In this document: positions 2,760-64,000 of the stretch, in pieces
Layout: each line of letters begins with the position of its first letter
How positions within the stretch are numbered: position 1 is the first letter of the stretch
DNA from: Blumeriella jaapii
Lineage: Eukaryota > Ascomycota > Leotiomycetes > Helotiales > Drepanopezizaceae
Assembly: GCA_009599575.1 (NCBI GenBank)
Contig: VWND01000051.1
Location: forward strand, 28,245-92,244
DNA: 64,000 nucleotides
Direction of reading: 5' to 3'
Program-made: the position numbers and the translations under genes
The notes under the pieces: generated by a model
Database searches by the model: none
Told to the model about the DNA's origin: nothing
The model's input: only the letters and a program-made list of their open reading frames with translations

Positions 2760-3870
2760 TTAAAAAACCTTAAAACCGCCGCTAAGCCAATTTATTTTTA
2801 TTGTTATTCTTTTTTTTATCGTTATCGCTATTTTTTTTAGATTCAGAAACAGCGGCAGGCTAAAAAAAATTAGTATTAAACGAATTCGCAGAATATTCGA
2901 CTTATTTCAATTAAAGCTTTTACAATAGCCGTAATCGAATCCTGAATTGCAACCACGATATGCTCGTAAAAATTCAGAATTTGATCCAATTAGTTAAAAT
3001 AGGTCCGAACGACGTTTTCGAAACATCGGAAAATACGTTTTATATTAGCGTCGTTAAATAAAAGGGCCGGCGCAGCCAAAGCCTCTAAAACAGCAGCAGC
3101 CGCTAAACCGGCAGAAACGGGCGCAGCAGCAGCAGCGGCAGCTTAAGCCGCGGCGCGATTCGCACGATTTCCGACTATTATAAAAGCCGAAGCGTTACTT
3201 TTTTTTTAAACGATTTATATAAGCGTTGTAAATAATAAAATCGACAAAAGTTTTAGCAAAAGCTTTGGCTTCGGCAGCAAAAGAAAAAAGGGCGGCAGCA
3301 GCGGTAGCAGCATCGAAACGATTTATAAAATCGTTAAGATCCGCAAAAAAAGTTTGCGCTTCGATAGCGCGTACGGCAAAAACCTGTAGCTAATTAAAAG
3401 CGAATTCGAATAAAAGTCTAAAGGATTTACAAAAAAGCATTAAATATGCGAAGCTTTGCAACGGTTGCATTTCACGCTGAAAAGCTCGAAAACGCAAAAA
3501 AGCAAAAAGTCCGCTATAATGCTTTCGCGTAAAATCAAACGGGCGCACCGAAAGCAGATAAAAGTCAAGGGCATTTTAAAAATTCGCGGCGAACGCGGCG
3601 AAAAACAATTGATTAAAATAAAAAAGAGTTAATAAAAAAATAAAAATAAAAAAGAAAAAAAAAAAATTGAGCAGGAAAATGGCGGCCATTTTAAAAAAAA
3701 AGGCTTTTTCAACGAAAATGCAAGCGTTACCGAAAACAAAAAAAACAGAACAGCAGAACAGCTATAATTCACGACCAAAAGCGGAAAAAACAGCTACAAT
3801 TCACGACCGAAAGCGAAAGAAACCGCACGTTATTTCGAAGGCGTAACGCACGCTATACGCATAAAAAAAT
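2760..3870 (+). pseudogene. Gypsy-A extra 3' ORF, Ala/Lys-rich, unknown
   Basis: About 1.1 kb between the chromodomain and the 3' LTR is conserved in all four Gypsy-A copies (also 9530-10620, 11730-12850, and reversed 14000-15110), so it belongs to the element. One frame gives Ala-rich text (for example AAKASKTAAAAKPAETGAAA near 3075), followed by a basic segment ending in RKQIKVKGILKIRGERGEKQ around 3540-3620. It is interrupted by RIP-type stops. I do not recognise the product. A coiled or nucleic-acid-binding accessory protein is only a guess from composition, and some of the conservation could be structural RNA instead. Confidence 0.5.
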
Positions 3871-9529: not shown

Positions 9530-10620
9530 ATTATTATTATTTTTTATTTTATTTTTATCGCTATTTTTTTCAGATTTAAAAACAACGGCAAACTAAAAAA
9601 ATTAATACTAAACGAATTCGCAAAATATTCGATTTATTTTAATTAAAGCTTTTATAATAACCGTAATCGAATTTTAAATTGCAATTACGATATTTTCGTA
9701 AAAATTCAAAATTTAATTTAATTAATTAAAATAAATCCGAGCGACGTTTTCGAAATATCGGAAAATACGTTTTATATTAGCGTCGTTAAATAAAAGGGCC
9801 GGCGCAGCCAAAGCTTTTAAAATAGCAGCAGCCGCTAAACCGGCAAAAGCGAGCGCAGCAGCAACGGCGGCAATTTAAGCCGCGGCGCGATTCGCACGAT
9901 TTCCGATTATTATAAAAACCGAAGCGTTATTTTTTTTTAAACGATTTATATAAACGTCGTAAATAATAAAATCGATAAAAATTTTAATAAAAGCTTTAGC
10001 TTCGGTAACAAAAAAAAAAAAGCGGCAGCGGCGGTGGCAGCATCGAAACGATTTATAAAATCGTTAAGGCCCGCGAAAAAAATTTACGCTTCGATAACGC
10101 GTGCGATAAAAACTTATAATTAATTAAAAGCGAATTCGAATAAAAATCTAAAAGATTTATAAAAAAGTATTAAATATACGAAGCTTTGCAACGGTTGCAT
10201 TTTACGTTAAAAAGCTCGAAAACGCAAAAAAATAAAAAAGCCGCTGTAATGCTTTTGCGTAAAATCAAACGGATATACCGAAAGCAAATAAAAATTAAAA
10301 GCATTTTAAAAGCTCGCGGCGAACGCGGCGAAAAGCAATTAATTAAAATAAAAGAAAGCTGACGAAAAAAAAAAATAAAAAAAAAAATAAAAAAATTAAA
10401 CAGAAAAATAACGATTATTTTAAAGAAAAAGGCTTTTTCAAACGAAAATACGAGCGCTACCGAAAACAAAAAAAACAGAATAATAAAACAACCATAATTT
10501 ACGACCGAAAGCGAAAAAAACAGCTATAATTTACGATCAAAAACGGAAAAAACCGCACGTTATTTCGAAAGCGTAACGTACGCTATATACGAAAGCATAC
10601 GTATAAAAAAATCAATCGCT
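9530..10620 (+). pseudogene. Gypsy-A extra 3' ORF, copy 2
   Basis: Same post-pol region as at 2760-3870, more mutated. The Ala-coding GCA/GCG runs near 9800-9880 and the segment encoding the basic C-terminal part near 10190-10350 are conserved in position. The 99-residue frame on the opposite strand (10170-10469) is a shadow of this RIP-altered region. Confidence 0.45.
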
Positions 10621-11065: not shown

Positions 11066-12867
11066 CAACGTCGAAAGCGACGTCGTAAAAAAAAAAGGTA
11101 CCGTCAGCGGAAAAACTAATTAAAATATTGCAAAAAGAAAAAAAAGTATTTAATAAAAAGCTAAAAAAAGCCAACGCGAATTATAAAAGGTTTTACGACG
11201 CTAAACATAAAAAAACTAGATTTTAAATAAGCGACAAAATATTATTATCGATTAAAAATCTTCGATAGCTGCGATTTTTTCGAAAACTTTTAAATAAATA
11301 TTTAAAGCTTTTCAAAATCAAACGAATTATATATAAGCACGGCCAAGTTTATTAATTCGAGCTTTATTTTTAATATTATATCTACGATATTTTTTACGTT
11401 TTTCTATAAAAACCTTAGTAAAATCGAAACGATATCGAGCCGAAAAATAATATAATAAAATTTTAAAAATCCGAAAAATACGAAATCAAATTAATACAAA
11501 TTTACAAAAATATAAAAAAAGGCCGATATTAGTTGATGCGATAAAAAGGTTATTTATTAAGCGAAAATTCGTAAAAGCTAGAAAAATCTTTTACGAACGT
11601 AAAAAAAAATTGTAAAAAAATATTTAAGAAATACGATAAATAATAATAACGGAGTAATAACGAATGCGCGTCGTAAAAATAAGAAAAAAAAAATAAAAGA
11701 ATTTAGAAAATCTTAAAATCGCCGCTAAAGCGATTTATTATTCGTATTATTATCGTTATTTTTATTTTTATTTTTATCGCTATTTTTTTTAAATTTAAAA
11801 GCAGCGGCAGACTAAAAAGAATTAATATTAAACGAATTCGCAGAATATTCGATTTATTTCAATTAAAGCTTTTACAATAGCCGTAATCGAATTTTAAATT
11901 GCAATTACGATATTTTCGTAAAAATCTAGAATTTGATTTAATTGGTCAGAATAAATTCGAGCGACGTTTTCGAAACGTCGGAAAATACGTTTTATATTAG
12001 CGTCGTTAAAAAAAAGGGCCGGCGCAGCCAAAGTTTTCAAAACAGCAGCAGCCGTTAAATCGGCAAAAGCGGGCGCAATAATAACGGCAGTTCGAGCCGC
12101 GGCGCGATTCGTACGATTTTCGATTATTATAAAAGCCGAAGCGTTACTTTTTTTAAAACGATTTATATAAGCGTCGTAAATAATAAAATTAATAAAAGTT
12201 TTAGCAAAAGCTTTAGCTTCGGCAGCAAAAAAAGAAAAAGCGGCAGCGGCGGTAACAGCATCGAAACGATTTATAAAATCGTTAAAGCTCGAAAAAAGAA
12301 TTTGCGCTTCGGCGGCGCGTACGGCAGAAACTTATAGCTAATTAAAAGCGAATCCGAGTAAAAGTCTAAAAGATTTACAGAAAAGCACTGAGTATACGAA
12401 GCTTTGCAGCGGTTGTATTTTACGTTAAAAAGCTCGAAAACGCAAAAAAGCAAAAAGGCCGCTGTAATACTTTCGCGTAAAATTAGGCGTGTATACCGAA
12501 AGCAAATAAAAATCAAAAGCATTTTGAGAATTCGCGGCGAACGCGGCGAAAAGCAATTGATTAGAATAAAAAAAAGCTAATGAAAAATAAAAATGAAAAA
12601 AAAAAAAAAAAAGTCGAGCAGGAAAATTGCGGCCATTTTAAAAAAAAAGCTTTTTTAAACGAAAATGCGAACGCTACCGAAAATAAAAAAAATAAAATAG
12701 TAAAACAATTATAATTTACGATCGAAAGCGGAAAAAACAGTTATAATTTACGACCGAAAGCGAAAGAAACCGTATATTATTTCGAAGGCGTAACGTACGC
12801 TATATACGAAAGCATACGTATAAAAGAATTAATCGCTTTTAGAAATCAAAAATTTAAAAAAAAAATT
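11066..12867 (+). mobile_element. Gypsy-A copy 3, 5'-truncated interior
   Basis: Starts abruptly at a point equal to about 2129 in copy 1 (the AACGTCGAAAGCGACG segment at the integrase C-terminus). It continues through the chromodomain region (about 11510-11640) and the extra 3' ORF (11730-12850) to the LTR at 12868. The missing 5' 4.5 kb and the direct LTR-to-integrase junction indicate a deletion or recombination product, which cannot move on its own. Confidence 0.85.
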
Positions 12868-26136: not shown

Positions 26137-26138
26137 TA

Positions 26139-26375
26139 CTAAGGGGCGCCTATAGGTGGGATTACAACCGATTTAACACCGAGTTAAATCCGAGTTAACA
26201 CTTGGCGTAAAATTAACTCCGAGTATAATTAGAATTAATACGCGATTAAATAAAAATTAATTTTAAAGTTACTAAAGATTAATAGATATAATAGATTGTG
26301 TAATAATTCAAAACTTCGAGAAAAATACAAATTTTATACGAATTAGTTATTACCTTTTATCAACGCTTTTATTAA
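26139..26375 (+). repeat. TA-element L terminal region
   Basis: CTAAGGGGCGCC followed by GGATTACAACCGATT at 26159-26173, then about 200 bp ending in ATTACCTTTTATCAACGC. It is nearly identical, in reverse, to 39455-39694 and 63660-63904. The last two share the end GGCGCCCCTAAG, while this copy reads CTTAG when reversed. Confidence 0.88.
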
Positions 26376-27310
26376 TATTATTATTAACATTATTATTATC
26401 AACACTACTACCACCTCGTCGCCACCATTTCGTCGCTATTATTAATATTACAACCAATATTATTACCAACATCACCATCACTTCGTCGCCACCATTTCGT
26501 CGCCATTACTACTATTACTATTACCACTACTACCATTATTACTACTATTACCACCATTATTACTATTATTACCACCATCTCGCTGCCACCACTTCGCTGC
26601 CACTACTTCGCTGCCACCATTTTGCTGCCACCATTTCGTCGCTATTATTACTACTATTATTACCATTACTACCATTATTACCACCACTACTACCACTATT
26701 ACTACTACTACCACCATTTCGCTGCCACCATTTCGCTGCCACCATCTCGCTGCCACCACCTCGCTGCTACTATCTCGCTGCCACCACTTCGTCGCCATCA
26801 CTACTACTACTATTACCACCACTACCATTATTACCACCACCACCACCATTATCACTACTACTACCACCACCTCGCTGCCACCACCACCTCGCTGCCACCA
26901 CCTCTCTGCCACCACCTCGCTCGCTACCACCATCATCACCATCATCACTACCACTACAAAACCACTACTACCATTAGGACCACCACTACCATCACTCCCC
27001 ACTACTACCACCACTACCACTATCACCACCATTATTATTATTATTATTATTACCACTACCATTACTACCACCACTACCACCATTACCACTATTACCATCA
27101 TTACCACCACTACCACCATTACCACCACTACCACCACTACCACCACTACTACTACCCACCATTACCACCATTACTACCATTACCACCACTATCACCACTA
27201 CCACCACTATCACCACTACCATTATTACCACCATTACCACCACTACCACTACTACACCCACCACTACCATCATCACCACTATTATCACCACTACCACTAC
27301 TACTATTATT
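26376..27310 (+). repeat. CACC-type satellite arm of the outer TA element
   Basis: Mix of (CAC/TAC/ATT)n trinucleotides and 14-bp units of the form TTCGCTGCCACCAT. Very long open frames on both strands here encode only runs of Val, Tyr, His or Gly/Ser and are artefacts of the repeat. It reads CACC inward from the L end and is inverted relative to the arm at 27420-28114. Confidence 0.9.
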
Positions 27311-27410
27311 ATTATTTCGCTAATACTATTTTGCTAGAAAAATAACGAAAAGCCGAACAGCCGAACAGCCGAATAGCCGAACAGCCGAATAAGCTGGGTA
27401 ATTATAATAA
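27311..27410 (+). repeat. Hinge with GAACAGCC octamer array
   Basis: Non-satellite segment TTTCGCTAATACTATTTTGC, CTAGAAAAATAACGAAAAG, then about five copies of an 8-bp unit (CCGAACAG/CCGAATAG). It is conserved in the short copy at 62700-62790 in reverse. It marks the point where the satellite arms switch strand, so it is the centre of the foldback. Confidence 0.85.
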
Positions 27411-28114
27411 TAGCAGCGAAATAATAGCAGCGAGATGGTGGCAGCGAAATGGTGGCAGCGAAATAATAATAGTAATAATAATAATGGTAGTAATAATAGT
27501 AATGGTGGTATAGTAGTAGTAATAATAATAATAATAGTAATAATAGTAATAATAATAATAATAATAGTGGTAGTAATAATAATAGCAGCGAGATAGTGGC
27601 AGCGAAATGGTGGCAGCGAAATAGTAGCAGCGAGATAATAGCAGCGAAATAATGGCAGCGAAATAATAGCAGCGAAATAATAGCAGCGAAATAATAACAG
27701 CGAAATAATAGCAGCGAAATAATAGCAGCGAAATAATAACAGCGAAATAATGGCAGCGAAATAATAGCAGCGAAATAATAGCAGCGAAATAATAGCAGCG
27801 AAATAATAGCAGCGAAATAATAATATAGCGAAAATAATAGCAGCGAAATAATAGCAGCGAAATAATAGCAGCGAAATAATAGCAGCGAAGTGATAGCAGC
27901 GAAATAATAGCAGCGAAGTAATATTAGCGAAATAATAACAGCGAAATAATAGCAGCGAAATAGTAGCAGCGAAATAGTAATAATAAAATAATAGCAGCGA
28001 GATAGTAGCAGCGAAATAGTAGCAGCGAAATGGTGGCAGCGAAATAATGGCAGCGAGATAGTGGCAGCGAAATAATAGCAGCGAAATGGTAGCAGCGAAA
28101 TAATGGCAGCGAAA
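27411..28114 (-). repeat. 14-bp satellite arm (ATAATAGCAGCGAA units), RIP-altered
   Basis: About 50 units related to ATGGTGGCAGCGAA, most converted to ATAATAGCAGCGAA by G-to-A changes, in the opposite orientation to the arm at 26376-27310. The array resumes at 39697-39835 after the inner element. Open frames here are repeat artefacts. Confidence 0.9.
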
Positions 28115-28116
28115 TA

Positions 28117-28620
28117 CCGTACGGCTTATCTAGGGTCGGATCACAACCGATTATACCCGGTTGCAAAACCGGGTATACACCGATTATAATCGGTTTTAAA
28201 ACCGGGTATACACCGATTATAATCGGTTTTAAAACCGAGTATACACCGATTATAATCGGTTTTAAAACCGATTGTACACCGATTATCACCGGTTTTAATC
28301 GATTACAATCGGTTTTAAAACCGATTATAATCGGTGTATACCCGGTTTTAAAACCGGGTATAATCGGTTGCTAATCGGTGTCAACACCGAAGTGGCGCGG
28401 TTTACTCTCACATCGATGTGACGATTTTACACCGAGTATAATCGGTGTTATCGAGTATAATCGGTGTTATCGAGTATAATCGGTGTATAATCGGTGTTAA
28501 CACCAAAACAAAACCAAAACTTATAAATTTATTATATTAAATCGATATTTAATATTGATCAAACCTTCGAAAATATATTAAAAAACTTATATTAAATTAC
28601 TAGTACGTTTATTAAACACT
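28117..28620 (+). repeat. TA-element R terminal region with palindrome cluster (inner copy)
   Basis: After CCGTACGGCTTATCTAGG and GGATCACAACCGATT come many copies of self-complementary units such as CCGATTATAATCGG, joined by TTTTAAAACC and GGTATACACC, to about 28500. A short conserved island GTGGCGCGGTTTACTC...ACATCGATGTGACG sits at about 28391-28425. Same layout at 61613-62050 and reversed at 39950-40297. Such clusters could bind a transposase or form cruciforms; that is inference. Confidence 0.87.
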
Positions 28621-29507
28621 ACTTTTTAATATTAACCTCACCAACACTATCACCACCTCGCCGCCACCACCTCACTGTCGCCAATACCAACACCACCACC
28701 AACACTACCACCACCTCGTCGCCATCATCTCACTGTCGCTAACACCAACACCACCATCAAACACCACCACTACCAACACCACCACCACCATCACCACCAA
28801 CACCACCACCTTATTGTCGCCAACACCAACACCACCACCACCAACACCACCATTACCAACACCATCACCATCTCGTCGCTACCATCTCGTCGCCACCATC
28901 TCACTGTCGCCAATACCAATACCACCACCAACACCATCACCATCTCGTCGCCACCATTTCATTGTCGCCAACACTAACACCACCACCAATACCATTACTA
29001 TCAACACCATCACCACTATCACCACCACCACACCACCACCTCGTCGCCACCACCTCACTGTCGCCAACACCAACACCACCACCAACACTAATACCAACAC
29101 CACCATCAACACCAACACCAACACCACCACCAACACCACCACCACCTCGTCGCCACCATCTCGTCGCTACTACCACTACCATCATTATTACCACCATTAT
29201 TACCATCACCACCTCGTCGCCGCCATCTCGTCGCTACCACCTCGTCGCTATTATTATCACTACTATTACTACCATTACTACCACTAACACCACTATTTCG
29301 TCGCCGACACCTCGCCGCCACCACCTCGTCGCCATCTCGTCGCCACCATCATTACCATCACTATCACCACCACCATTACTATTATTATTACCACCTTGTC
29401 GCCGCCACTTCGTCGCCACCACCTCGTCGCCATTATTATCACCATTATCATCACCACCATCATCACCATTATCACCATCTCGTCGCCGCCACCATCACCT
29501 TTATCCC
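28621..29507 (+). repeat. CACC/CTCGTCGCCACC satellite arm of the inner TA element
   Basis: Dense ACC/CAC repeats with interspersed CTCGTCGCCACCA and CTCACTGTCGCCAACACC units. It retains a very high CpA content, unlike the RIP-altered arm just to its left. All open frames here (Thr/Pro/His/Val-rich) are repeat artefacts. Confidence 0.9.
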
Positions 29508-29760
29508 ATTATTATTTAGTATTACTATTATTCTTATTATTATTCCCAATATGCTTTCTATTATTTTTATTATAATACCTATTATTTTTATGATTATTTC
29601 TATTAACGTCGCCGTTATTTCTATTATTATTTTTATTATGCTTTTCATCTTTTTTATTATCATTTTTATTATGCTTCCCATTTTCCTTATTATTATTTTT
29701 ATTATTCTTATTATTTTTATTATTAATCTTATTATTCCTACCGTTATTCACGTTTATATA
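29508..29760 (+). repeat. (ATT/TTC)n low-complexity edge of the centre
   Basis: TTATT/ATTATT-rich run linking the CACC arm to the unique centre. Ile/Asn-rich open frames on both strands are composition artefacts. Confidence 0.7.
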
Positions 29761-32700
29761 TAATCAATCGACCAATCGCATATGTAATATAATTTATTTT
29801 TTAAATCTTTTTTATTTCATTCGTTTTTATTATTTATCGGACAAAATACCAAATAATTCTGGTCGTAATATAATTTAAGCAATTTAATAAATCTAATATT
29901 TCGAGCTATTCGTCAGATTTCCAAACTTAATATTTTATTTTCCATTGGATTTTCATTATTATTATTTATTTTTTCGACTTCGTAATATATAAAAAAGACG
30001 TAGGGTTTACTTTGAAACTGCGCGATGCAAAACTGAGCGATTTGGCAGATACGATTGTTATTGATATTGCTATTATTATCGCTATCGATTTAACAAAAGT
30101 TTTTAATATTAAAAGTGCGACGGCGACTATTCGAGAAAGTATATAATAGTCGTTGGTATTATATAATTCGATTTTTTTCGATTAAAAGTAATAATATTAT
30201 AAATTGCGTAGTTTATATATATCAGTCTGGATTTAAGAAAAGCATTATTTACCTTTGTTAAAAGCGCTTCGAAGTTGCTTATTAAAAACCTTAGGTGCAA
30301 TGGTTAATATAAATAAGCTTTTACTTATGCGTAATTTTCTTTCTGTTGTAATGCGAGATGCAGCGTAGCTTTTTACGTCGATATTAATTTTATTATAATA
30401 ATTAATATCCAGGCTGTGTTTTATTCCGGCTTTTTATCTTTTTTAAATCGTTCGAAAAAAGAAATAAAGCTTTGAATTAATTCGGAATAATATTTTTGAA
30501 TAATATTTAAAAGATCGTTTAATTCGGAATATATGTTTTTTTCTACGCGCCGGCGAATCCTAATCGGAATGATTATTATATATTATTCTTGGAAAAAAGA
30601 TAAGTTATAAAATTAAAAAGTGCTGCGATATCAACCTAATTTTTTCAATTATTAATAATAATAAACGTTGTTAGCATAGTGTTTTTATAATATTATTAGC
30701 AATTATGTGTTGATCATTTACTTGTGTTTAAACTTTCCGGCCAATACGTTTTTATTTATAATATGCGCATATTTTTTAGCGTTGTCGGATAAATAAAATT
30801 CGATATGAAAATTGAGTAAAATAAAAAGCTTATTTTATTTGTTCCGCTTTTTCGCTGGTCGGGCGTTTTCTGCGACGTTATTTTTATTTTTTATTTTTAT
30901 TTTGAGTATTAACGTTAAAAAGGTTGGGAATGCTTTTCCTAGCGTTGTTTGTATTCTTTTCCGATATAACTTTTTGCCCGGCCTTTTGTGTATTGCGAAG
31001 TAAGATATTATAAGCCATGCGAAACTTTCGCAAAAAGTAGTAAATATTTTTCGGTAGTATATATAAGATCTTCGAGTAAACTTTCGTAAAAATAACAGTA
31101 ATATAGCGAAATAAGCGTATTAGTTTTTTAATAAATGGGTTTTCGCTTTGTATACGCATTAATACATTCAAATAAAATAGCTTATATTAAGATTTTTTTC
31201 CGCGATATCGTAGGATAAAAAAAATTAGAATAATTGCTCGCCCGGTTTCTGAAAATAACTACGAGAATAAATAAAAAAGTGATTATATACGCGGCCAACC
31301 AAATGGAAACGGAAAGTTTTGTATAGTTTTAATAAATCCAGTAAAGCTTAGTTTCGTTAGAATAGTATTAAATAATAAATTAAATAAAATTTTATTTATT
31401 TTTTTCTATTTTGAATAAAATGCGTTATAAGTTCGTCCAAGAACCAGATCGAAAGCGGATGCGATAGAAAAGATATTTGGCTTATTTTTTCGCATATTAT
31501 AATCTGCGAAAAAAAACGGCTTCGCTAATGGTTGTTTATTTTTTGCTTACGCCGACGAAAGTGTATTATATTTTAATAATAACGTGAAAAATAAAAAAAG
31601 TCGAAATTTCAATCTTTTCGTTCGTATAATTATGTATAGCATGTTTTATATTCAAATACAGCGTTATAGCGTATAAATCCAAAGTTATCGGCTTATTAAA
31701 GCATATTTTTTAAAAAAACGATTAGGAAAACCTTTATTATAAATATTTTTATTATTAATTCGGATAAAAATACTTTTAGCAAGCTTGCTTATATCAGGCT
31801 TCAAATTGGCTACGACGTCCGATATCGCCGCTTTATATAGTTTTAAAATAAAAGTGAAATTGTTACTAGGTTTTCGGCGTTTTTTCGAAAATCAGATTCG
31901 CCGGTGTAATATAAAACCTTTTAATAACTTTGTAATTGTTGCGATATATTCCGAAGTCGTTTATAAACAAAGTAAGCGGGACAGATATACAGTGTTAAAA
32001 GCTAGCAAATTTTTTAAGATATTTCCGACCGTAAACACCGATTTTTAATTCGGCTTGTAAAAATGGGGTTTCTCGGATTTTTATTATAGTGGCTCGATTT
32101 AATCCGATAATATGCTTGATAAAAAATCTATTTATATAAATATTAGTTTTTTTTATATTATTAAATTTCTAAAAGATTGTAACAACGCTTCGGTATATAA
32201 TTTGCTCCGGAACAATTTCGAACGTTTTATTAAAAATAAAAAGCTTTTGATTTTCTAGATAAACGTTAATATTATCGGGTAACTTTTTTTCGAAAGCTAT
32301 TTTTATTATAGTAAAAATAATACTTTCGATAGCAGTAAAAAGTTTCGATCGATGCTTACGTTTAATAAACGTAATACGACTTTTGGAAAAGCTATTTATA
32401 AAGCTTATTAATTTAACGATATCTTTTGGCAAAAGGATATTACCGTTTAAATTTCGGGCAAAGTCTTCGGAAATCGTTAATACAAATATGCCTTAAGCTT
32501 TAAAATAATAAAAAACTCATAAGGTTTATTAATATACTAGGCCATGCCCAGGTGCATTTTGTTTATAATAACATTCGTTCGCATCAGATAGGCGATCAAA
32601 TCCATTGAATTATACTAATAATGCTACGTCTTTCTGATTATTCGTATACGCCCGGTCTTGCTTTTTTGCCTTTTTTCCAATATAGCCTGCTTTTTTAATA

Positions 32701-33100
32701 CGACAGTAATCGGTCGTTTTAATAAACGCAATAATAGAAGGTAGGCACGCATTTGTTTTTTTAAAATGTTTATTCTAAAAGGCAGCTTTAATACATTTTT
32801 TTATTTGAAAATAACGTTTTGGGCTATAAAAAAAAGCTGTCGAAGCTATTTATATACCGTCCGGGATATCGAGTTTTTTTCGCATTATAGCTTAATTGCA
32901 AAATGGAAAGATGATATAAGTTTTTTAGCTGTTGATACAGTAATAAATTCGAGATTTGATAGAACTGGTGAAAAAGATGGGCTGGAAACAGTAATAAATA
33001 AAATTGAATTGTGCGAAAAAACAATTAATTTAAATATATCGGAAAATACCATTTCAGTTTTATTTGAAGTTTGCATTGTATTTTATAATTGTTAGCATTA
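29761..33100. pseudogene. Decayed coding-like region in the inner TA element centre, strand uncertain
   Basis: About 3.3 kb with long frames broken mainly by TAA/TAG. On the plus strand one frame is continuous without frameshift from about 31590 to a stop at 33095, ending in an intact 109-residue stretch (32766-33095; KWKDDISFLAVDTVINSRFD). On the minus strand an equally long frame runs from about 32610 to 30884 with one slip near 32013 (FNGFDRLSDANE; LVLGRTYNAFYSK). Both are depleted of stops, so the true strand is unclear. I recognise no transposase signature. Being the only non-repetitive part of the largest copy, it is where a mobility gene would be expected. Confidence 0.4.
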
Positions 33101-33103
33101 TTT

Positions 33104-33910
33104 TTAAACGCGATATATACTTATATTATCGTAAAAACCTTTTAATTTTGTATTTTTCTTTTCGTTATTTATAATATCATTACGATCATTTGTATTATCG
33201 TTCTCGCCGTTTATAACGTTGCTATTTTTTTCGTTATTTATATTAACGTTCTTATTATTTACGTTGTTGTTTTTGTTATTTACGTTGTTATTTTCGTTAT
33301 CCACGTTATTATCTTTGTTATTTATATTAACGTTTTCGTTATTCACATTGATATTTTCGTTATTTACATTGATATTTTCGTTATTCACGTTATTATTCTC
33401 GTTATCCACGTTGTTATTTTCGTTATTTATACTAACGTCCTTGTTATTTATACTAATATTTTCGTTATTTATATTGATATTCTTGTTATCCACGTTATTA
33501 TTTTCGTTATTCACGTTGTTGTTTTCGTTATTTATATTAACGTTTTTGTTATTTACATTAACGTTTTTGTTATTTATATTAATATTCTCGTTATCTACGT
33601 TGTTGTTTTCGTTATCCACGTTATTGTTTTCGTTATTTATATTAACGTCCTTGTTATTTATATTAACGTTTTCGTTATTTATATTAATATTCTCGTTATT
33701 TATACTAATATTTTTGTTATTCATATTAATATCTTCGCTATTTATATTGTTATTTTTTATTATTTATATTATTGTTTTTATTATTTATATTAATATTTTC
33801 GTTATTTATATTAATATCTTCGTTATTTATATTAATATCTTCGCTATTTATATTATTATTTTCGTTATTTATATTATCGTTTTCGTTTTTATTATGCATA
33901 TCGGAATCGT
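33104..33910 (-). repeat. 21-bp minisatellite coding Asn-rich heptads on the minus strand
   Basis: More than 30 units of about 21 bp related to TTATTTATATTAACGTTTTCG. On the minus strand they read INNENVN/INNKDVN heptads without a stop from 33724 to 33104; further units extend to about 33900. The plus-strand Leu/Phe/Ser frame (33219-34094) is the antisense. It could be a low-complexity domain of an element protein, but may simply be a minisatellite. Confidence 0.7.
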
Positions 33911-34099
33911 TATTAATAACGGCTATGTTTTTATTTTAATTATTAGCATCGTATTTAACTTTGCATCCGGTTTTATTACCAATTTTATTCTTAGCTTTAT
34001 CGCGGTTTTTACTATCAGCTTTTTTTGTGTATGCGCTTATCGTAGTCGTTATAAATATAATCGTCGCCGTAGTCGGGATCGGAAAAAGCTGTAGGTATT

Positions 34100-35403
34100 G
34101 CAGAGGATAAGAATAAGGACGAGGGTGATGAAAAGAAAGATTCGTTAACCGATTGTTGCTAGATAAATAATCGCGTTGTATTAGAACGTCGTATTATTGT
34201 AACGACTGGTATATTATTATCGCAGTAGTAGTGGGTATATGTAGCAAAGAAGATGGATACTGCTAGTAAGAAAATGCAAAATGCAAACGCATAAAAGAAT
34301 AAAGGAATTAAGGTAAGCGCATATTATTTATATAAAACCGCGTTCCGCCGCGATAAAACGCGGGGCATAAGGCGAACAAAATTCGGTATTTGTATGGATA
34401 GTATATATTTACTTTTTTTATATGCTATTATTTTCCGTCTGCTTTTTCGGACGCTAAAATTAAATGGATATCATATATTTCCAAAGCATTAATATTAATA
34501 TTAGTCGTCCGAAAATTAATAATTAAGTATTATTTTTTATTTTAATTTATTTTATTATTATCAAGCCTATTAATTTTTTTATTAATTTTAAATTGTTAAG
34601 TGTTTTCGTTAGTATTCGCGAAAAAGTTATTATTTACGGCCATATTTTGGTTCTGATTAAAATCGATAACTTTGCGGATCTGGCGTTTTAATAAAATGGA
34701 AACTGCGTTGAATGGAAAGTCGTTTATTGATAAAGTATTTAAAAACAGCCAGTTTATAAAAGCTATTAAATACGGCTAGCTGATAATAACGAATAAACTT
34801 CGAAAGTTTGTCGTTTTTAGTTTTATTATAAATGCGAGTAAAACGCTCGTGAATTATAATATAAACAACGGAATCTAAAAGTTTAAGTAAGTTATATTTA
34901 GTATTTTAATATGCAAAAGGCCAGGCAAGTAAACTTATAACGTAAAAAATTGAATTTTAGTTCGAATATATTAGCAATATCGATCGCCGAAGAAAAAACA
35001 GAAAATAATAATTCGATTTAATATGCCTAGAATCGCGAGTTAATCGCATTTTTTAAGAATCCGTAATTCGTGCTTTGTGTTAAAGTTTTATTATAACGAT
35101 TGTTTTTAAATAAACTCTTGGTGAAAATATATGTTTTGCGGAAAATTAAACTTTTTTAATTTTTGAAATCGGAGTTCGATTTATAAACGCAATTCTTAAA
35201 TATAGTATTAATGTTCGATAAGCCCGGAAAAACCTTTTGTACCGGTATATAGGATTTGTTTCGATCGAGCTCTGTTATATAAACCCGGCGGTTCTAGAGT
35301 TTTTTAATTTAGCCATAGCTTTATTTTCGGTTTTGGTATATTCGATAAATACTTTTCTAGCTGCTTTTTGCTGTATCTTCTTGGATTCGGAGGCTTTTAG
35401 GTA
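34100..35403 (-). pseudogene. Decayed continuation of the minus-strand ORF, unknown
   Basis: Downstream of the stop of the 35404-36198 ORF the same frame continues for about 60 codons (ASESKKIQQKAARKVFIEYT; KAMAKLKNSRTAGFI), then pieces in other frames (about 34700-34800, KLSKFIRYYQLAVFNSFYKL). This suggests that the 264-residue ORF is only the front of a longer, now broken protein. No family recognised. The part from 34100 to 34600 is AT-rich without clear coding. Confidence 0.35.
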
Positions 35404-36198
35404 TTAGAAGATATTGGATTTGCGCTTTCGCTTTTTGACTTTCTGTCTATTATTTTCGTTTTCGTCAGATGGAGGGGTTATAAGTGTTTTAAAAAAGCTC
35501 TTTTCCATTTTTAGCTTTGGTTTGCGTCTGCTTCGGGGCAGTGGCAATGGCAGTAGCAATGGCAGTGAAAGCAGCAGATGCAATATATGTAGAAAGCCGT
35601 TCTGGAGAATTGAATTGCGACCGAGAAAATAAATTGGACTGCGACTAAGATAAAAAGGGCTATGATTAAGAAGCACGTAGGTTTGCCTGCGAGCCGGTTG
35701 TCCTCGAAAATGCCTGCGAGCCGGTTGCTCTCGAAAATGCCTGCGAGCCGGTTGCCCTCGAAAATGCCTGCGAGCCGGTTGCTCTCGACGCTGGTTGGAT
35801 ATTACTATTGCTTTTGCTTTATGGTCGGTAAAAAGGGTTGTTAACAGCCTTTTTAACAGGTTTCGCTTTCGTCGCAGGCTGGGAATAAGTTTTTTAGTAA
35901 AGCTATCGTTAGCTATTAAATAATATATAATAATAATACTAAGATCGTGATACGAATATACTTTTGCATTTTTAATTCGAATAAGGCTATTATATATTAA
36001 GCCATTTGTATTATTTTTATTATCGCTATCGAAAATTTTTATATTTCGCTTGCGATTGCTAATATTCGTTCGTTTTAATTTATCCGTTTTTCGTATATAA
36101 ATTTGAGAATCTTTTATAATTTCATCGGAAATTCCTGGTTTATCGGGTGTATTTTCGCGAAAGACCTTTTTGCGCTTTTTGAAAAGCTGAGATAGCAT
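35404..36198 (-). CDS. 264-residue ORF with a 9-residue tandem repeat, unknown
   Basis: Longest intact ORF that is not satellite. It starts ATG at 36198 (MLSQLFKKRKKVFRENTPDK) and has a charged N-terminal region. Four to five copies of a 27-bp repeat (35683-35790) encode RREQPARRHF/RGQPARRHF, followed by a Leu/Pro-rich part and a basic tail KVKKRKRKSNIF like a nuclear signal. It is less RIP-altered than the surroundings. The TAA at its end reads through into similar coding text, so it may be truncated by mutation. Unknown function; possibly an accessory protein of the TA element. Confidence 0.4.
   Translation of the reverse strand: MLSQLFKKRKKVFRENTPDKPGISDEIIKDSQIYIRKTDKLKRTNISNRKRNIKIFDSDNKNNTNGLIYNSLIRIKNAKVYSYHDLSIIIIYYLIANDSFTKKLIPSLRRKRNLLKRLLTTLFTDHKAKAIVISNQRREQPARRHFRGQPARRHFREQPARRHFRGQPARRQTYVLLNHSPFYLSRSPIYFLGRNSILQNGFLHILHLLLSLPLLLPLPLPRSRRKPKLKMEKSFFKTLITPPSDENENNRQKVKKRKRKSNIF
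35683..35790 (-). repeat. 27-bp tandem repeat inside the 264-residue ORF
   Basis: Four near-identical units of TGCCTGCGAGCCGGTTG plus CTCTCGAAAA, high in CpG and free of RIP damage. In frame with the minus-strand ORF (Arg/Gln/Pro/Ala-rich). Confidence 0.85.
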
Positions 36199-36335
36199 AA
36201 TAATAGTGGATTGATTAGATTGGCTAGACCAATAATCAAAATTAGATATGTTGAATAGCGCGCTGGTAGTAATAAATAGTAAAAGGTGTGATGAACGTAA
36301 TATATAAGTATGCTAATTAAGATGAATAGGTATAG

Positions 36336-36689
36336 TTAGTGATTTATTTTCGTTAGTATCGGGATCCGAGTATATACGAAAATTAGGCTCAGGCGTATGA
36401 TATGAACGAGGGCAGCGAACGAACTGGTTGCTACCTGCGTTGCTATTGTTAGTTCACAGGGTTCTGTAAAAGGCGGGGCTGGGAAAGGCATTTTACCTGT
36501 ATCAAAAGGTTCCGGAATGCCTGTGGTACCTATAGCAGCCAATGCCGGCGACGAGTAAATGTCGTATTGCATCGGTTGTAGAATAGTATTGTGAAAGATT
36601 TGAAAAGATGCAGGTGTTGAAACGGTATATAAGAAAGATGCATACCGGTGTACAAATAAAGTATTGTGCGAATTACCCCTTATATTCAA
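36336..36689 (-). CDS. 117-residue ORF, unknown, nearly free of RIP
   Basis: Minus-strand frame with balanced composition (QPMQYDIYSSPALAAIGTTG, then IPEPFDTGKMPFPAPPFTEP). It lies directly upstream of the 35404-36198 ORF on the same strand, so it could be a first exon or leader ORF of the same gene; a GT-containing junction is possible near the end but I cannot place an intron. No recognisable domain. The sequence between the two ORFs (36199-36335) shows nothing definite. Confidence 0.3.
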   Translation of the reverse strand: MNIRGNSHNTLFVHRYASFLYTVSTPASFQIFHNTILQPMQYDIYSSPALAAIGTTGIPEPFDTGKMPFPAPPFTEPCELTIATQVATSSFAALVHIIRLSLIFVYTRIPILTKINH

Positions 36690-37110
36690 AAAGGCTTAGC
36701 GTAGCCGTATACGCGAGGCTTCAAAAAGCAGTCTTCGCGCAAAAAGCAATTTTCCGCGCAAAAAGCAGTTTCCGCGCAAAAAGCAGTTTTTATATACGGA
36801 AGTCCCGCGCAAAAAGCAGTTTTTACATATAAAGGTCCCGCGTAAAAAGCAGTCCTCGCGCAAAAAGCAATTCCCGCGCAAGAAGCAGTTTTTATATACG
36901 GAAATCCCGCGCAAAAAGCAGTTTTTTATATACAAAAGTCCCGCGTAAAAAGCAGTCCCCGCGCTAAAAGCAGTTTTTGCGCAAAAAGCAGTCTCCGCGC
37001 ATAAAGCAGTTTTTATATACGGAAGTCCCGCGCAAAAAGCAGTTTTTTTATATACGGAGGTCTTACGCAAAAGGCAATTTTTATATACGAAGGTTTTACG
37101 CAAAATAGCT
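36690..37110 (+). repeat. Array of GCGCAAAAAGCAGT motifs
   Basis: About fifteen or more copies of CGCGCAAAAAGCAGT/TTTT, many followed by TATATACGGAAGTCC, spaced irregularly at roughly 16-35 bp. It is flanked by the minus-strand ORFs on the left and the satellite arm on the right. It resembles a subterminal binding-site array or an upstream regulatory array; the open frame across it (KNCFLRG...) is a repeat artefact. CpG is retained and RIP is weak. Confidence 0.75.
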
Positions 37111-37149
37111 TTTTCGATGAATTTTATTAATTTACTTAATCGAGAATTC

Positions 37150-37912
37150 GATATCGACGAATAAAAATAGAAAGGGAAATGGTGGCGACAGCGAGATAGT
37201 AGCGGCGAGATGGAAATGATAATAATAATATTAATAATAATATTGGTAATAATAGCAATAGCGAAGTGGTAGCGATAAGGTAATGACGGCGAAGTGGTGG
37301 TGGTGGTGGTGATGATGGTGGTGGTGGTGATAGCGACGAGGTGATGGTGATAGTGTTGGTAGTAGTATTAATAATAGTGGCGGTAGTAAGATGGTGGCGG
37401 CGAAGTGGAAATGATAATAATAGTTTTGATAGTAGTATTAGTGATAATAGCAATAGCGAGATGGTAGCAATAAGATGGTGACGGCGAAGTGGTGGTAGTA
37501 GTGGTGATAATAAAATTGGTAGTAATAATGTTAATAGTGATATTAATAGTGATATTGATAATGATGGCGGTAGTAAAGTGGTGGCGGCGAAGTGGAAATG
37601 ATAATAATAATGTTAATAATAGTGTTAGTAATAATAGCAATAGCGAGGTGGTAGCGATAAAGTGATAACGGCGAAATGGTAGTGGTAGTGGTAATATTAA
37701 AATTGGTAGTGGTGGTATTAGTAGTGGTATTGATAATGATAGCGGTAGTAAAGTGATGGCGGCGAAGTGGAAATGATAATAATAATGTTAATAATAGTGT
37801 TGGTAATAATGGCAATAGCGAGGTGGTAGCGACAAAGTGGTGGCGGCGAAGTGGTAATAGTAGTGGTGATAATAATATTAGTAGTAATAGTGTTAATAGT
37901 AATATTAATAAT
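37150..37912 (-). repeat. 175-bp higher-order repeat in the GTGG arm
   Basis: About four tandem copies of a unit of about 175 bp beginning near GGCGGCGAAGTGGAAATGATAA. Frames inside it repeat at exactly 175-bp offsets (37368, 37543, 37718). Internally it is made of GGTGGCGGCGAAGTGG-like satellite and AAT/GTT trinucleotides. Confidence 0.8.
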
Positions 37913-37913
37913 T

Positions 37914-38402
37914 GTAAGAATTAAAAGGTAAGAAAACATTAATTCAGACAATAATTGGGTTGATAGTCAGACTAATTTTTACCTTTTTCATTTTTAGTAA
38001 AAGGCGCTTATAAATACAAAAGGAGGAGTAATAATAATAATAATGATATTGTTTAACGTTTGGAAGGGGCAGTGAAACTGCGCTACCTCAAGCTTTCCGA
38101 AAGGCATTAGAAACGTGCTAAGCTGGGGATTTTTATATACAAAAGACTTTTGAGAAAGCAGTTATATAAAAGAAATGTGTGACAAAGGTTCGCAAAAGAA
38201 GGAGTAGAGCCTTCGAGAAAAGTATTTCTTAAGAAACCAGGCGAATTTCATTTAGTATGCTTTTTTAATCCTTATTCCGACCTTTTTTCAATTTTTTTTA
38301 ATATAATTTTAATAACTGGTTTCTTAGCAATCACTCTTATAAAGTGTTTTATCTAAATGTTATTTCTAGCTCTCATAGTATTATCCGGCCCTTACGGCCT
38401 AG
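37914..38402 (-). repeat. Gypsy-A LTR, truncated, inside the satellite arm, with a small insertion
   Basis: Reverse-oriented Gypsy-A LTR from TGTAAGAATTAAAAGG (37914) to TTACGGCCTAGG, missing the last 90 bp or so, which end GGTTCCTGACA in other copies. Less RIP-mutated than the full elements. Split by the insertion at 38031-38204. It shows that the inner TA element was a target for Gypsy-A. Confidence 0.82.
38031..38190 (-). mobile_element. Small insertion with 14-bp target duplication (SINE-like)
   Basis: About 160-175 bp not present in other LTR copies, flanked by CAAAAGGAGGAGTA (38017-38030) and CAAAAGAAGGAGTA (about 38193-38206), a 14-bp duplication with one difference. On the minus strand it ends in an (ATT)n-like tail. 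Long duplication plus simple tail fits target-primed retrotransposition of a SINE or a LINE fragment. A segment GTAGCGCAGTTTCACTG faintly resembles a pol III A box, but no B box is certain. Confidence 0.6.
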
Positions 38403-39454
38403 GCGACGAGGTAGTGGTGTTAATGGTGTTAGTGGTGGTGGCGACGAGGTGGCGGCGACGAGATGTTGGTGGTAGTGTTGGTGGTGGTATTGGTGGTGAT
38501 ATTGGTGGTAGTGTTGATGGTGTTGGTAGTGGTGGCGGCGACGAGGTGGTGGTGGTGGTGGTGGTGTTGGTGGTGGTGGTGTTGGTGGTGTGTGGTGGTG
38601 GTGTTAGTGGTGGTGTTGGTGATGGTGTTGGTGATAGCGATAATAAGATGTGGCGGCGGCGAGGTGGTGGTGGTGGTAGTGGTGGTGTTGGTGGTGGTGG
38701 TGATGGCGACGAGGTGGCGGCGCGACGAGGTGGTGGTGGTGGTGGTGGTGGTGGTGGTGGTGTTGGTGGTGTTGGTGGTGGTGGCGACGAGGTGGCGGCG
38801 ACGAAGTGGTGTTGGTAGTGGTGGTGGCGACGAGGTGGCGGCGACGAGGTGGTGGTGGTGTTAGTAATGGTGTTGATAATGGTGTTGGTGGTGGCGACAG
38901 TAAAGATGTGGCGGCGAGATGGTGGTGGTGTTTGGTGGTGGTGGTGTTAGTAGTGGTGGTGATAGCGACGAGGTGGCGGCGACGAGATGGTGGTGGTGGT
39001 GGTGGTGGTGGTGTTGGTGGTGGTGGTGTTGGTGTGGTGGTGGTGGCGACGAGGTGGCGGCGACGAGGTGGTGGTGGTGGTGGTGGTGGTATTGGTGGTG
39101 GTGTTGGTGGTGTTGGTGGTGGTGGGTGGCGACGAGGTGGCGGCGACGAGGTGGTGGTGGTGTTGGTAATGGTGTTGATAATGGTGTTGGTGGTAGCGAC
39201 AGTAAGGATATGGCGGCGAGATGGTGGTGGTGTTGGTGATGGTGGTGTTAGTGGTGGTGTTAATAGTAGTGTTGGTGATGGTGTTGGTGATAGCGACAGT
39301 AAGATGGTGGCGGCGAGGTGGTGGTGGTGTTAGTAGTGGTGGTGTTAATGGTGTTGGTGGTGGCGATAGTGAGATGGTGGCGGCGAGGTGGTGGTGGTGT
39401 TGGTGTTGATGGTGGTGTTGGTGGTGATGGCAGCGAAATGGTGGCAGCGAAGTG
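38403..39454 (-). repeat. GTGG/GGCGACGAGG satellite arm of the inner TA element
   Basis: Inverted counterpart of 28621-29507: (GGT)n with GGCGACGAGGTGGCGGCGAC units and little RIP damage. The Val/Trp/Gly/Arg-rich open frames up to 175 residues are artefacts of the repeat. Confidence 0.9.
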
Positions 39455-39694
39455 GTGTTAATAAAAGCGTTGATAAAGGGTAATAACTAATTCGTATAAG
39501 ATTTGTATTTTTTTCGAAGCTTTAAATTATTATACAACCTATCGTATTTATTAATTTTTAATAACTTTAAGATTAATTTTTATTTAATCGCGTGTTAATT
39601 TTGATTATATTCGGAGTTAATTTTACGCCAAATGTTAACTCGGATTTGACTCGGTGTTGAATCGGTTGTAATCCCATCCACAGGCGCCCCTAAG
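39455..39694 (-). repeat. TA-element L terminal region (inner copy)
   Basis: Reverse of 26139-26375 ending ATCCCATCCACAGGCGCCCC then TAAG. Followed by TA and the resumed 14-bp satellite of the outer element. Confidence 0.88.
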
Positions 39695-39696
39695 TA

Positions 39697-39840
39697 ATAA
39701 CAGCGAAATAATAGCAGCGAAATGATAGCAGCGAAATAATAGCAGCGAAATAATAGCAGCGAGGTGGTGGCAGCGAAATGATAGCAGCGAGATGATAGCA
39801 GCGAAATAATAGCAGCGAAGTAGTGTTAGCGAAAATATTA
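39697..39840 (-). repeat. 14-bp satellite of the outer element, resumed
   Basis: About ten AGCAGCGAAATAAT-type units continuing the array cut at 28114, then transition to the AT-rich part of the R region. Confidence 0.88.
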
Positions 39841-40297
39841 TTTAATATAATATTAAATAAACGTGGTTTAATATAAAATTTTTAATTTAAATTCGAAAAG
39901 TTTAATATATATTAAATATCGAATTAATTTAATTATATAAATTTGTTTCGGTGTTAATATCGAATATAATCGATATTAATACCGATTATATTCGATATTA
40001 CCGATTATATTCGGTGTTAAATCGTTATATCGATGTAAAAATAAACCGCGCCATTTCGGTATTAACACCGATTAGCAACCGATTATATTCGGTTTTAAAA
40101 CCGATTATAATCGATTATAATCGAATTAAAACCGGTTATAATCGGTGTATAATCGATTATAATCGGTGTATAATCGGTTTTAAAACCGATTATAATCGAT
40201 ATATATTCGGTTTTTTAAAACCGATTATAATCGGTGTATATCCCGTTTTGCAACCGGATATAATCGGTTATGATCCGATCCTAGATAAGCCGTACGG
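39841..40297 (-). repeat. TA-element R terminal region (outer copy)
   Basis: Reverse of 28117-28620: AT-rich part, TTTCGGTGTTAATATCG, the CCGATTATAATCGG palindrome cluster, then ATCCTAGATAAGCCGTACGG at the end. More C-to-T/G-to-A altered than the inner copy. The 147-residue frame across it is a repeat artefact. Confidence 0.87.
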
Positions 40298-40299
40298 TA

Positions 40300-61606: not shown

Positions 61607-61612
61607 TTATTA

Positions 61613-62150
61613 CCGTACGGCTTATCTAGGGTCGGATTACAACCGATTATACCCGGTTGCAAAACCGGGTATACACCGATTATAATCGGTTTTAAAACCG
61701 GGTATACACCGATTGTAATCGGTTTCAAAACCGATTATACACCGATTATAATCGATTATAAACCGATTATAATCGATTATACACCGATTATAACCGGTTT
61801 TTTAATTCGATTATAATCGATTATAATCGGTTTTAACCGATTATAATCGGTATATAATCGGTTTTAAAACCGGGTATAATCGGTTGCTAATCGGTGTCAA
61901 TACCGAAGTGGCGCGGTTTACTTTTACATCGATGTGACGATTTAACACCGAGTATAATCGGTATTACCGAATATAATCGGTATTAATACCGATTATATTC
62001 GGTGTTAACACCGATTATATTCGGTGTTAACACCCGAAACAAATTTATACAATTAAATTAAATCGATATTTAATATATATTAAATTTTTCGAATTTAAAT
62101 TAAAAATCTTATATTAAACTACGTTTATTTAATATTACATTTAATAATAT
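61613..62150 (+). repeat. R terminal region with palindrome cluster (short copy)
   Basis: GGATTACAACCGATT at 61634-61648, then repeated CCGATTATAATCGG-type palindromes to about 62030, including the GTGGCGCGGTTTACTT and ACATCGATGTGACG island near 61908-61940, then an AT-rich stretch. Confidence 0.88.
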
Positions 62151-62695
62151 TTTTATTAATATTATTTCGCTGCCACCATTTCGCTGCCACCATCTCGCTG
62201 CTACCACCTCGCTGCCACCATCTCGCTGCTACCATCTCGCTGCCACCACCTCGTCGCCACCACCTCGTCGCCACCACCACTACCATCACCATCATTACCA
62301 CCACCACCACCACCATCACTACTATCACCACCACCTCGCTGCCACCATCTCGCTGCCACCATCTCGTCGCCACCATTATTACCACCACTACCATTATTAC
62401 TACCATTACCACCATTACCACCACCACCACTATTACCACCACCACCATCACCACGATCACCACCATCACCACCACTACCATCACCACCACCACCACGATC
62501 ATTATTATCACCACCATCACCACCACCACTATCACCATCATTATCACCACCATTATCATTACCATCATTATCACCACCACCACCATTATTATCATTATTA
62601 TCATTATTATCATTATTATTATCATTATTATCACTACCACCACTACCATCACCACTACTATTATTATCACCACCATTTTCCTGCCACCATTGTAA
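62151..62695 (+). repeat. CACC satellite arm (short copy)
   Basis: TTCGCTGCCACCAT-type units followed by (CAC/ATC/ATT)n. Reads CACC inward; mirrored by the GGTGG arm after the hinge. The 183-residue Val/Met frame on the minus strand is an artefact. Confidence 0.9.
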
Positions 62696-62790
62696 CTATT
62701 CAGCTTATTCGGCTGTTCGGCTATTCGGCTGTTCGGCTGTTCGGCTTTTCGTTATTTTTTCTAGCAAAATAATATTAGCGAAATAATAAT
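62696..62790 (-). repeat. Hinge with octamer array (short copy)
   Basis: Reverse of 27311-27410: about five CGGCTGTT/CGGCTATT units, then CTTTTCGTTATTTTTTCTAG and GCAAAATAATATTAGCGAAA. Near-identical between copies that are otherwise variable satellites. Confidence 0.85.
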
Positions 62791-63660
62791 AATAGCAGCG
62801 AAGTGGTGGCAGCGAGAGATGGTGGCAGCGAAAATGGTAGCAGCGAAGTGGTGGCAGCGAGATAGTAGTGGGTAGTAGTGGTGGTGATAGTGGTGATAAT
62901 GGTAATAATAATAATGGTAGTAATAATGGTGGTGGCGACAATAATAGCAGCGAAGTGATGGCAGCGAGATGGTGGCAGCGAGATGGTAGCAGCGAAGTGG
63001 TGGCAGCGAGATGGTGATAATAGTAATAGTAATAATGGTGATGATGATGATAATAATAGTAATAATAGTAGTGATAATAGCGACGAGGTGGCGCTAGCGA
63101 GGTGGTGGCAGCGAGATGGTGATGATAGTAGTGGGTGGTGGTAGTGGTGGTGATAGTGGTGGCGACGAGGTGGTGGCAGCGAGGTGGTGGCAGCGAGGTG
63201 GTGGCAGCGAGGTGGTGGTGGTGGTAGTAATGATAATAGTGGTGGTGGTGGTAATAGTAATAATAGTAATAATAGTAGTGGTGGTAATAATGGTGGCGAC
63301 GAGATGATGATAGTAATAGTGATAATGGTGGTAGTAATAGTAGTCGTAATGGTGGTAGTAGCGACGAGATGGTGGTAGTAATAATGGTGGTGGTGGTGGT
63401 GGTGGTGGTGGTGGTGGTGGTGGCGACGGTGAAGTGGTGGCGGCGAGGTGGTGGTAGTAGTGTTAATAAAGTGGTGGTGATAATGATGGTGTTGATGGTA
63501 ATGTTAGTGATAGTGTTGATAGCGACGAGATGACGGCGACGAGGTGGGTGGTAGTGTTGGTAATAGTGTTGGTTGTGGTGTTGGTAGTAGCGATAGCGAG
63601 GTGGTGGCGACGAAGTGGTGGCGACGAGGTGGTGATGGTGTTGGTAGTAGTGGTGTTGAT
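62791..63660 (-). repeat. GGTGG/GCAGCGA satellite arm (short copy)
   Basis: AGTGGTGGCAGCGAGATGG units and (GGT/AAT/GAT)n, ending GATGGTGGTGTTAATAAAAGC. Inverted relative to 62151-62695. Confidence 0.9.
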
Positions 63661-63904
63661 GGTGGTGTTAATAAAAGCGTTGATAAAAGGTAATAATTAA
63701 TTCGTATAAGATTTGTATTTTTTTCGAAGCTTTGAATTATTACATAACCTATTGTATTTATTAATTTTTAATAATTTTAAGATTAATTTTCATTTAATCG
63801 CGTGTTAACTTTGATTATACTCGAAGTTAATTTTACGCCAAGTGTTAACTCGGATTTGACTCGGTGTTGAATCGGTTGTAATCTTATCCACAGGCGCCCC
63901 TAAG
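63661..63904 (-). repeat. L terminal region (short copy)
   Basis: Reverse of 26139-26375; ends ATCTTATCCACAGGCGCCCC then TAAG before the TA duplication. Confidence 0.88.
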
Positions 63905-64000
63905 TAATAACTTTTTTTTTACGCTAGCGACGGCGTAAACTATTTTTTTCTTCGAATTTCTTACGAATTATACCAAGATGATCGACCGATTGTAAAAAAA

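Follow-up and report, generated by a model that had tools for sequence, protein, structure and literature searches.

Foldback elements with satellite-built arms have a well-described representative in Tm1 of root-knot nematodes, which, according to the available part of its description (PMC3169594), has unequal 7-bp end motifs lying outside an inverted repeat made mostly of 14-bp tandem repeats, is flanked by duplications of 8-10 bp in 45 of 53 cases and depends on a Mutator (Phantom) transposase. As far as that part of the source goes, Tm1 is the closest architectural precedent that we found for the family presented here. On the side of the enzyme, the closest described group is the CACTA/EnSpm-Mirage-Chapaev-Transib (CMCT) clade, with the transposase motif order D..D..C(2)C..H(3-4)H..E, target duplications of 2-5 bp and fungal members (Kojima 2025, PMC12730594). 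The CMCT termini are 5'-CA..TG-3' "in most cases" (PMC12730594), and because of that wording CA..TG is not taken as an absolute requirement of the clade; ESTA has TA duplications and PlavakaA has 2-bp ones (PMC12730594). No foldback family in the CMCT clade or in fungi was found in the open-licence literature, searched by title and start of abstract.

The window analysed here is a 64,000-nucleotide stretch of the genome of the ascomycete Blumeriella jaapii, and it is part of the same assembly (47.4 Mb in 91 contigs) in which all genome-wide searches were made. We consider it very likely that the satellite-armed elements of this window belong to a cut-and-paste DNA transposon family in which long copies once encoded a RAG1-like DDE transposase of the CMCT kind, and short foldback-type copies were passengers moved in trans. 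The short, hinge-type element which gave rise to the study lies on the plus strand at 61613-63904 (2292 bp); CCGTACGG begins at its first base and CCCCTAAG finishes at its last one, with a TA adjoining both sides, and the limits proposed in a first-pass annotation are thus exact to the base. We call P the left end of this element (CCGTACGGCTTATCTAGGGTCGGAT...) and Q its right end, read inward (CTTAGGGGCGCC...), and the element is therefore read from P to Q. The motif GGATTACAACCGATT, announced as common to both ends about 20 bp inside, has six matches in the window with up to two mismatches, versus 0.15 expected, and none of 100 shuffles reached that number. The cluster of palindromes that had been assigned to the R end is real, but it lies in the P end, at the left of the named copy.

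The inverted satellite arms were borne out in the elements of the window, and the octamer hinge is present in the named element and in a second one (Table 1). The first-pass annotation had counted three copies, one of them with a coding centre and another one with a hinge. Both exist in addition to the named element, but they are not separate: they form one nest, in which an 11,578-bp long element is inserted into a 2.58-kb element. The outer element extends from 26139 to 40297 (2.58 kb without the insert), with the two copies of its TA duplication found at 26137-26138 and at 40298-40299, and the insertion site of the inner one is the right-hand 14-bp (14-mer) satellite of the outer one. The satellites that make up these arms can be explained not as free arrays but as parts of mobile elements. 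The long body contains a satellite of its own (CCGCGCAAAAAGCAGT type) at 36722-37089, which further long copies also have, in different lengths. Elsewhere in the window, a 32-base unit (AACAGCTACAATTCACGACCAAAAGCGAAA type) forms three short tandem pairs (3757-3823, 10485-10553 and 12702-12770), apparently unrelated to the elements.

Table 1. Coordinates of the features of the named element and of the nested pair in the window.
Feature	Position	Strand	Remarks
Left TA target-site duplication, named element	61611..61612		
P end, named element	61613..62166	+	terminal CCGTACGG, subterminal GGATTACAACCGATT at 61634, palindromic ACCGATTATAATCGGT cluster, then AT-rich stretch
Left satellite arm, named element	62167..62690	+	TCGCTGCCACCATC 14-mers and CCA-type triplets; C-rich
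Octamer hinge, named element	62706..62745	+	(TATTCGGC/TGTTCGGC)x5
Right satellite arm, named element	62790..63670	+	G-rich, inverted relative of left arm
Q end, named element	63671..63904	-	terminal CTTAGGGGCGCC on minus strand, AGATTACAACCGATT inside
Right TA target-site duplication, named element	63905..63906		
Outer element, Q-end part	26139..28116	-	hinge at 27352-27391
Inner long element, P to Q	28117..39694	+	11,578 bp; TA duplication 28115-28116, 39695-39696
Left satellite arm, inner long element	28640..29500	+	
Transposase remnant, inner long element	30534..32995	-	many stops; acidic catalytic residues lost
Asn/acid-rich tandem-repeat reading frame	33104..33763	-	
302-aa open frame	35407..36312	-	counterparts in other long copies
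Right satellite arm, inner long element	38400..39460	+	
Outer element, remainder with P end	39695..40297	-	

The search of the genome with up to three mismatches returned 75 P and 66 Q ends, and none with the reversed-pattern control; the conservation of the ends therefore reaches beyond the three copies from which the family had been proposed. Bracket matching of these ends, with one Q end of the window added by hand and twelve ends left unpaired, gave 65 P-Q elements, 51 of them of 1.6-3.5 kb and 14 larger, nests included. Sequence conservation among copies extends over about 560 bp at P and about 240 bp at Q, and the first 120 bases of P show 92-100% agreement in 38 copies that were chosen by their outer 25 bases. 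The flanking 2 bp are identical in 64 of the 65 pairs (57 TA, 5 TT, 1 AA and 1 CG), the only pair without matching flanks being C65:1142620-1145241, and a match of 3 bp was observed in only two of the 65. With these pairs, the proposal of one plan shared by a multi-copy, foldback-like family is upheld at the scale of the genome. At one locus of 8.6 kb (L071), P ends on either side suggested an autonomous copy of symmetric build; this was rejected, as the locus consists of two short elements facing each other around DNA which, by eye, resembles retrotransposon remains.

Related empty sites could be identified for two nested insertions in non-satellite DNA, C12:148856-150641 (four homologues) and C76:59429-73066 (five homologues). 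Each of these nine homologues presents a single copy of the dinucleotide, which is TA in four and TG or CA, one transition away, in five; in one homologue there is a gap of a single base near the site. For the satellite-embedded insertions of C16 and C51 no unique empty site was found, because the satellite matches itself many times. The matching 2-bp flanks, together with the single dinucleotide in the empty sites, fix the target duplication at 2 bp with a strong preference for TA, and not strictly TA. Therefore, the TA duplication described at first stands for 57 of the 64 matched cases and has to be widened for the other seven. Those 57 cases would agree with an origin from a Tc1/mariner or pogo (Fot1) element, which duplicates TA and whose non-autonomous members turned foldback-like, and five DDE_1 hits (PF03184, pogo-type) do exist in the genome. 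However, a strict TA duplication is expected of Tc1/mariner/pogo elements and seven of the 64 are not TA, none of the five DDE_1 hits is at a P-Q element, and the transposase of the long body is of another kind, so that we regard this origin as very unlikely. Helitrons make no target duplication, and this class was rejected since the 2-bp duplications and the empty sites contradict it.

The two ends form an imperfect inverted repeat: their 60-bp alignment scores 13, versus a maximum of -1 in 2000 shuffles. This alignment, made with the T variant of P, owes its score to the inner GGATYACAACCGATT. Between the outermost 21 bp of the two ends there is no significant likeness, with 10% of the shuffles reaching their score, and therefore there is no classical terminal inverted repeat. 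The P consensus contains 17 occurrences of the heptamer ACCGATT or its complement AATCGGT, and Q a single one. By analogy, this looks like a group of clustered subterminal sites which a transposase may bind; clustered subterminal repeats are typical of CACTA elements.

To compare the forms of the family we used the 38 of the 65 elements that are readable whole. Thirty-two of these have the octamer hinge; of the six without it, five carry a shared 8-kb coding body instead and one short copy has neither. The long form comprises six elements, and the five that are readable whole measure 11.2-16.7 kb after removal of nested copies. The short form is mostly of 1.6-3.5 kb, with ends and arms as in the long form, and five more large copies (C8:22962, C91:1439826, C65:1126527, C76:59429 and C12:64188) have the hinge and no body. 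GC skew is negative in the left arm of 37 of the 38 copies and positive in the right arm of all 38. Exact hinge arrays amount to 52 in the genome, and the 46 located inside pairs are all oriented from P to Q; at least one of the six outside pairs lies in an element whose Q end is too diverged to be paired. Hinge-like sequences with one mismatch were also seen outside P-Q elements, at C3:284465 and 286118 and at C5:1064426 and 1066078, in both cases on the same strand and about 1.65 kb apart. With long inverted tandem-repeat arms around a short or coding centre, the family has the build that defines the foldback structural class.

In the 26 short copies compared, the left arm has more 12-mers in common with its own reversed right arm than with those of other copies: the fraction is 0.455, versus a mean of 0.367 and a maximum of 0.423 in 20,000 permutations, and 0.02 in the same-strand control. 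This excess suggests that the arms were partly homogenised or expanded within single copies. In only five of the 26 does the left arm find its best match in the right arm of its own copy, and the longest exact arm-to-arm matches are of 24-116 bp.

The coding body (30000-36300 in the window) matches six elements only in the whole genome, located on C51, C16, C62, C5, C12 and C76: all 13 matches above 1000 bits fall in these six long elements, and the other 17 are below 91 bits. The long bodies are about 81-86% identical over stretches of more than 2.5 kb. Among five aligned bodies, 7648 of the 8023 pairwise differences (95%) are transitions, the signature of repeat-induced point mutation (RIP), which caused most of the change in them. 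A column call over the five bodies placed on the minus strand eight of the 11 frames of at least 110 aa, and two of the three plus-strand frames lie opposite the Asn-rich repeat. The 964-aa minus-strand read-through of this call, with X at stops, matched a protein of 1288 aa (P0001) with an E value of 1.6e-149 and 32% identity over 95% of the query, and single copies match it too. The same search also found P0002, and a profile search added six relatives, one of which (P0003) is a hypothetical protein of Coleophoma cylindrospora. Seven pieces of the copy in the window, interrupted by stops, align with P0001 directly, and this copy keeps only part of the D, D, CxxC, HxxxH, E motif set. The Asn/acid-rich frame of Table 1 is perhaps the N-terminal region of the transposase. 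Genome-wide there are 23 hits of P0001, 19 of them within the six long elements and 21 with stops; all transposase copies found in the assembly are damaged, and none that is intact or active was found. More distant relatives, all with stops and away from the P and Q ends identified here, are located at C18:468075-469013, C2:987070-987708, C73:1183542-1183835 and C78:358523-358834, and perhaps represent sister families.

It could be argued that this RAG1-like gene is passenger cargo captured by six copies and that the true mover is elsewhere, considering that the gene is in only six of the 65 pairs, in none of them intact, and that five other large copies carry the hinge without the RAG1-like body. 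We find this improbable, since the body is nowhere else in the genome at the DNA level, it is common to the long copies along most of its length, and the 2-bp duplication fits a CMCT enzyme. Furthermore, DDE_Tnp_4 (PF13359), which would have indicated a PIF/Harbinger-ISL2EU element, had no hits in the genome, and PF03184 had none at the elements.

Among the eight relatives (P0001-P0008), D, D and CRxC are present in all, and HxxxH and the final GE in six; the two that lack them end before that point. From this motif order we would place the family near the CMCT clade, and a place inside the clade is not claimed. In Pfam, the eight relatives gave no family above the cut-off, with neither Transposase_21 nor MULE detected, and none of eight pieces taken from the column call reached it. 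The scan of 111 stop-to-stop pieces (from 248 candidates in ten large copies) gave reverse transcriptase in two members and scattered weak hits, and tyrosine recombinase, the enzyme expected inside a Crypton or Starship, was absent among the 17 families found. Nothing relevant was found in the PDB by sequence, and a comparison with viral contigs gave nine pattern matches and no relative. A Mutator-type foldback family like nematode Tm1 would explain the similar build, that is, unequal end motifs, 14-bp satellites, and coding and non-coding centres; nevertheless, the duplication is of 2 bp and not of 8-10, and the relatives have no MULE match, which leaves that affiliation a very slim chance.

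Two fold models of relatives were obtained with low confidence (mean pLDDT of 50.6 and 58.8). In Foldseek, RAG1, accompanied by HzTransib for the first model, was the only transposase among the best 50 matches listed per model. It was BAH domains, and not RAG1, that topped both lists, and the RAG1 alignments have an rmsd of about 11-12 on these low-confidence models. By structure comparison only, a BAH-like region appears to lie ahead of the catalytic part, at residues 200-332 of P0004 and 80-239 of P0006, and its equivalent in the window would be at about 32.05-32.45 kb on the minus strand. According to the models, then, the relatives probably carry a BAH histone-reading domain. A mention of BAH in a Fusarium paper (PMC3599309) was set aside because it concerns a non-transposon gene.

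Regarding the genomic setting, the DNA outside paired elements at the first 30 loci read averages 27.8% GC (41,817 bases, overlaps counted twice), and three polymerase-gene loci have 51-52%. Two polymerase-subunit loci (C49:7828-8706 and C11:65136-66014) gave identical scores on different contigs, perhaps due to a duplicated contig in the assembly. For RPB2, among the 120 matches listed of 5081, Orbilia oligospora reaches 89% identity and another entry 93%, and the one with the highest score bears the label Marasmius, at 78%; the host was judged from this to be probably a filamentous ascomycete. In the nine contigs of known length with at least three elements (C51 left out), the elements span 3-21% of the contig. 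Fewer than one in 200 random placements were as tight in eight of the nine, and 4.8% in C17, figures that exaggerate the clustering since nested copies were counted separately. Such a distribution is compatible with elements that insert into silent AT-rich blocks or that survive there. Clustering on most of the contigs tested, and arms made of tandem repeats, would also be seen if satellite or centromere arrays had been copied by recombination with no transposition, but the defined ends, the 2-bp duplications in 64 of 65 pairs and the precise empty sites leave hardly any room for that reading, and we maintain that of a transposon family.

The ratio of observed to expected CpA plus TpG amounts to 0.45 for the P end, 0.77 for Q, 0.78 for the body as column-called and 1.41 for the arms, and to 0.52-0.63 for single damaged bodies. 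The palindrome array of the P end (28146-28298 and 61642-61754) has few such sites, the value of 0.45 corresponding to bases 1-430 of P, and therefore offers little for RIP to act on. As single damaged bodies also reach 0.52-0.63, the P end may have already been RIPped in the past. Under RIP, an end with few target sites would be maintained. A further-reaching proposal is that of a separate RAG1-like transposon lineage in filamentous ascomycetes, in which the BAH domain aims the copies at silent AT-rich chromatin and the passengers, having evolved foldback arms of satellites and ends that offer RIP few CpA sites, could spread despite RIP, to which the coding copies were lost. We put this forward tentatively, and at present we would rather doubt it than assume it. 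In any case, the probable BAH domain suggests an explanation, open to testing, for the accumulation of such elements in silent blocks.

The mechanism that we propose starts from what was observed directly (the ends, the 2-bp duplication, the empty sites, the split between hinge and body, the damage and the transposase relationship). The long form would have provided a RAG1-like DDE transposase of the CMCT kind, which presumably bound the subterminal repeats at the unequal P and Q ends that share the inner inverted motif. After excision by this enzyme, the element would have been joined to a target cut with a 2-bp stagger, with TA preferred, and a 2-bp duplication would be the consequence. The short form, with the same ends and arms and the octamer hinge in place of the gene, would have been moved in trans. 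The mirror-image arms consist of 14-bp and 3-bp satellites, which would grow, shrink and be partly homogenised within the copy. Further work on the family can draw on its 65 paired copies, on the nested insertions and their empty sites, and on the transposase with its probable chromatin-reading domain.

Compared with known systems, the P-Q family resembles the CMCT clade in the motif order of the relatives and in a 2-bp duplication (64 of 65 pairs), within the range of 2-5 bp, and it resembles ESTA in having TA in 57 of the 64 matched duplications, the rest being TT, AA or CG. It differs from the clade in its termini, which are CCG.. (CCGTACGG) and CTTAGGGG.. instead of CA..TG, and in presenting unequal ends, long satellite arms, octamer-hinged passengers and a probable BAH domain; nor are its termini the TGT..ACA or CATCA..TGATG of Plavaka (A or B). 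The SmTRC1-type relatives, as the accessible part of PMC1636069 describes them, are CACTA-like with 2-bp duplications (seven of 14 Schistosoma copies) and have reported fungal members, but they present CCC termini, terminal inverted repeats and a Transposase_21 domain, which was undetected in the relatives studied here. Regarding the build, the available portion of PMC4079207 describes Galileo (Drosophila, P superfamily) and Tetris with a foldback organization and internal tandem repeats in the arms. Galileo is a case of this build inside a transposase-bearing superfamily, although with a P-type transposase; for Tetris no transposase was found, Mutator being suggested, and the duplication is of 8-10 bp. 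Tm1, in the accessible text of PMC3169594, shares the unequal end motifs outside the inverted repeat, the 14-bp satellites and the coding and non-coding classes, and it differs in its 8-10 bp duplications, its Mutator enzyme, its non-coding copies mostly of about 0.9 kb or less and its animal host. The initial impression that the elements match no known family holds for the exact combination of features, but the transposase remains of the long copies would place them near the CACTA/EnSpm-Plavaka-ESTA-Transib (CMCT) group, and Tm1, as far as its source goes, has much the same build. The P-Q family agrees with the idea that the foldback build arose repeatedly, and adds to the cases of it a fungal host and a transposase close to the RAG1-related CMCT clade.
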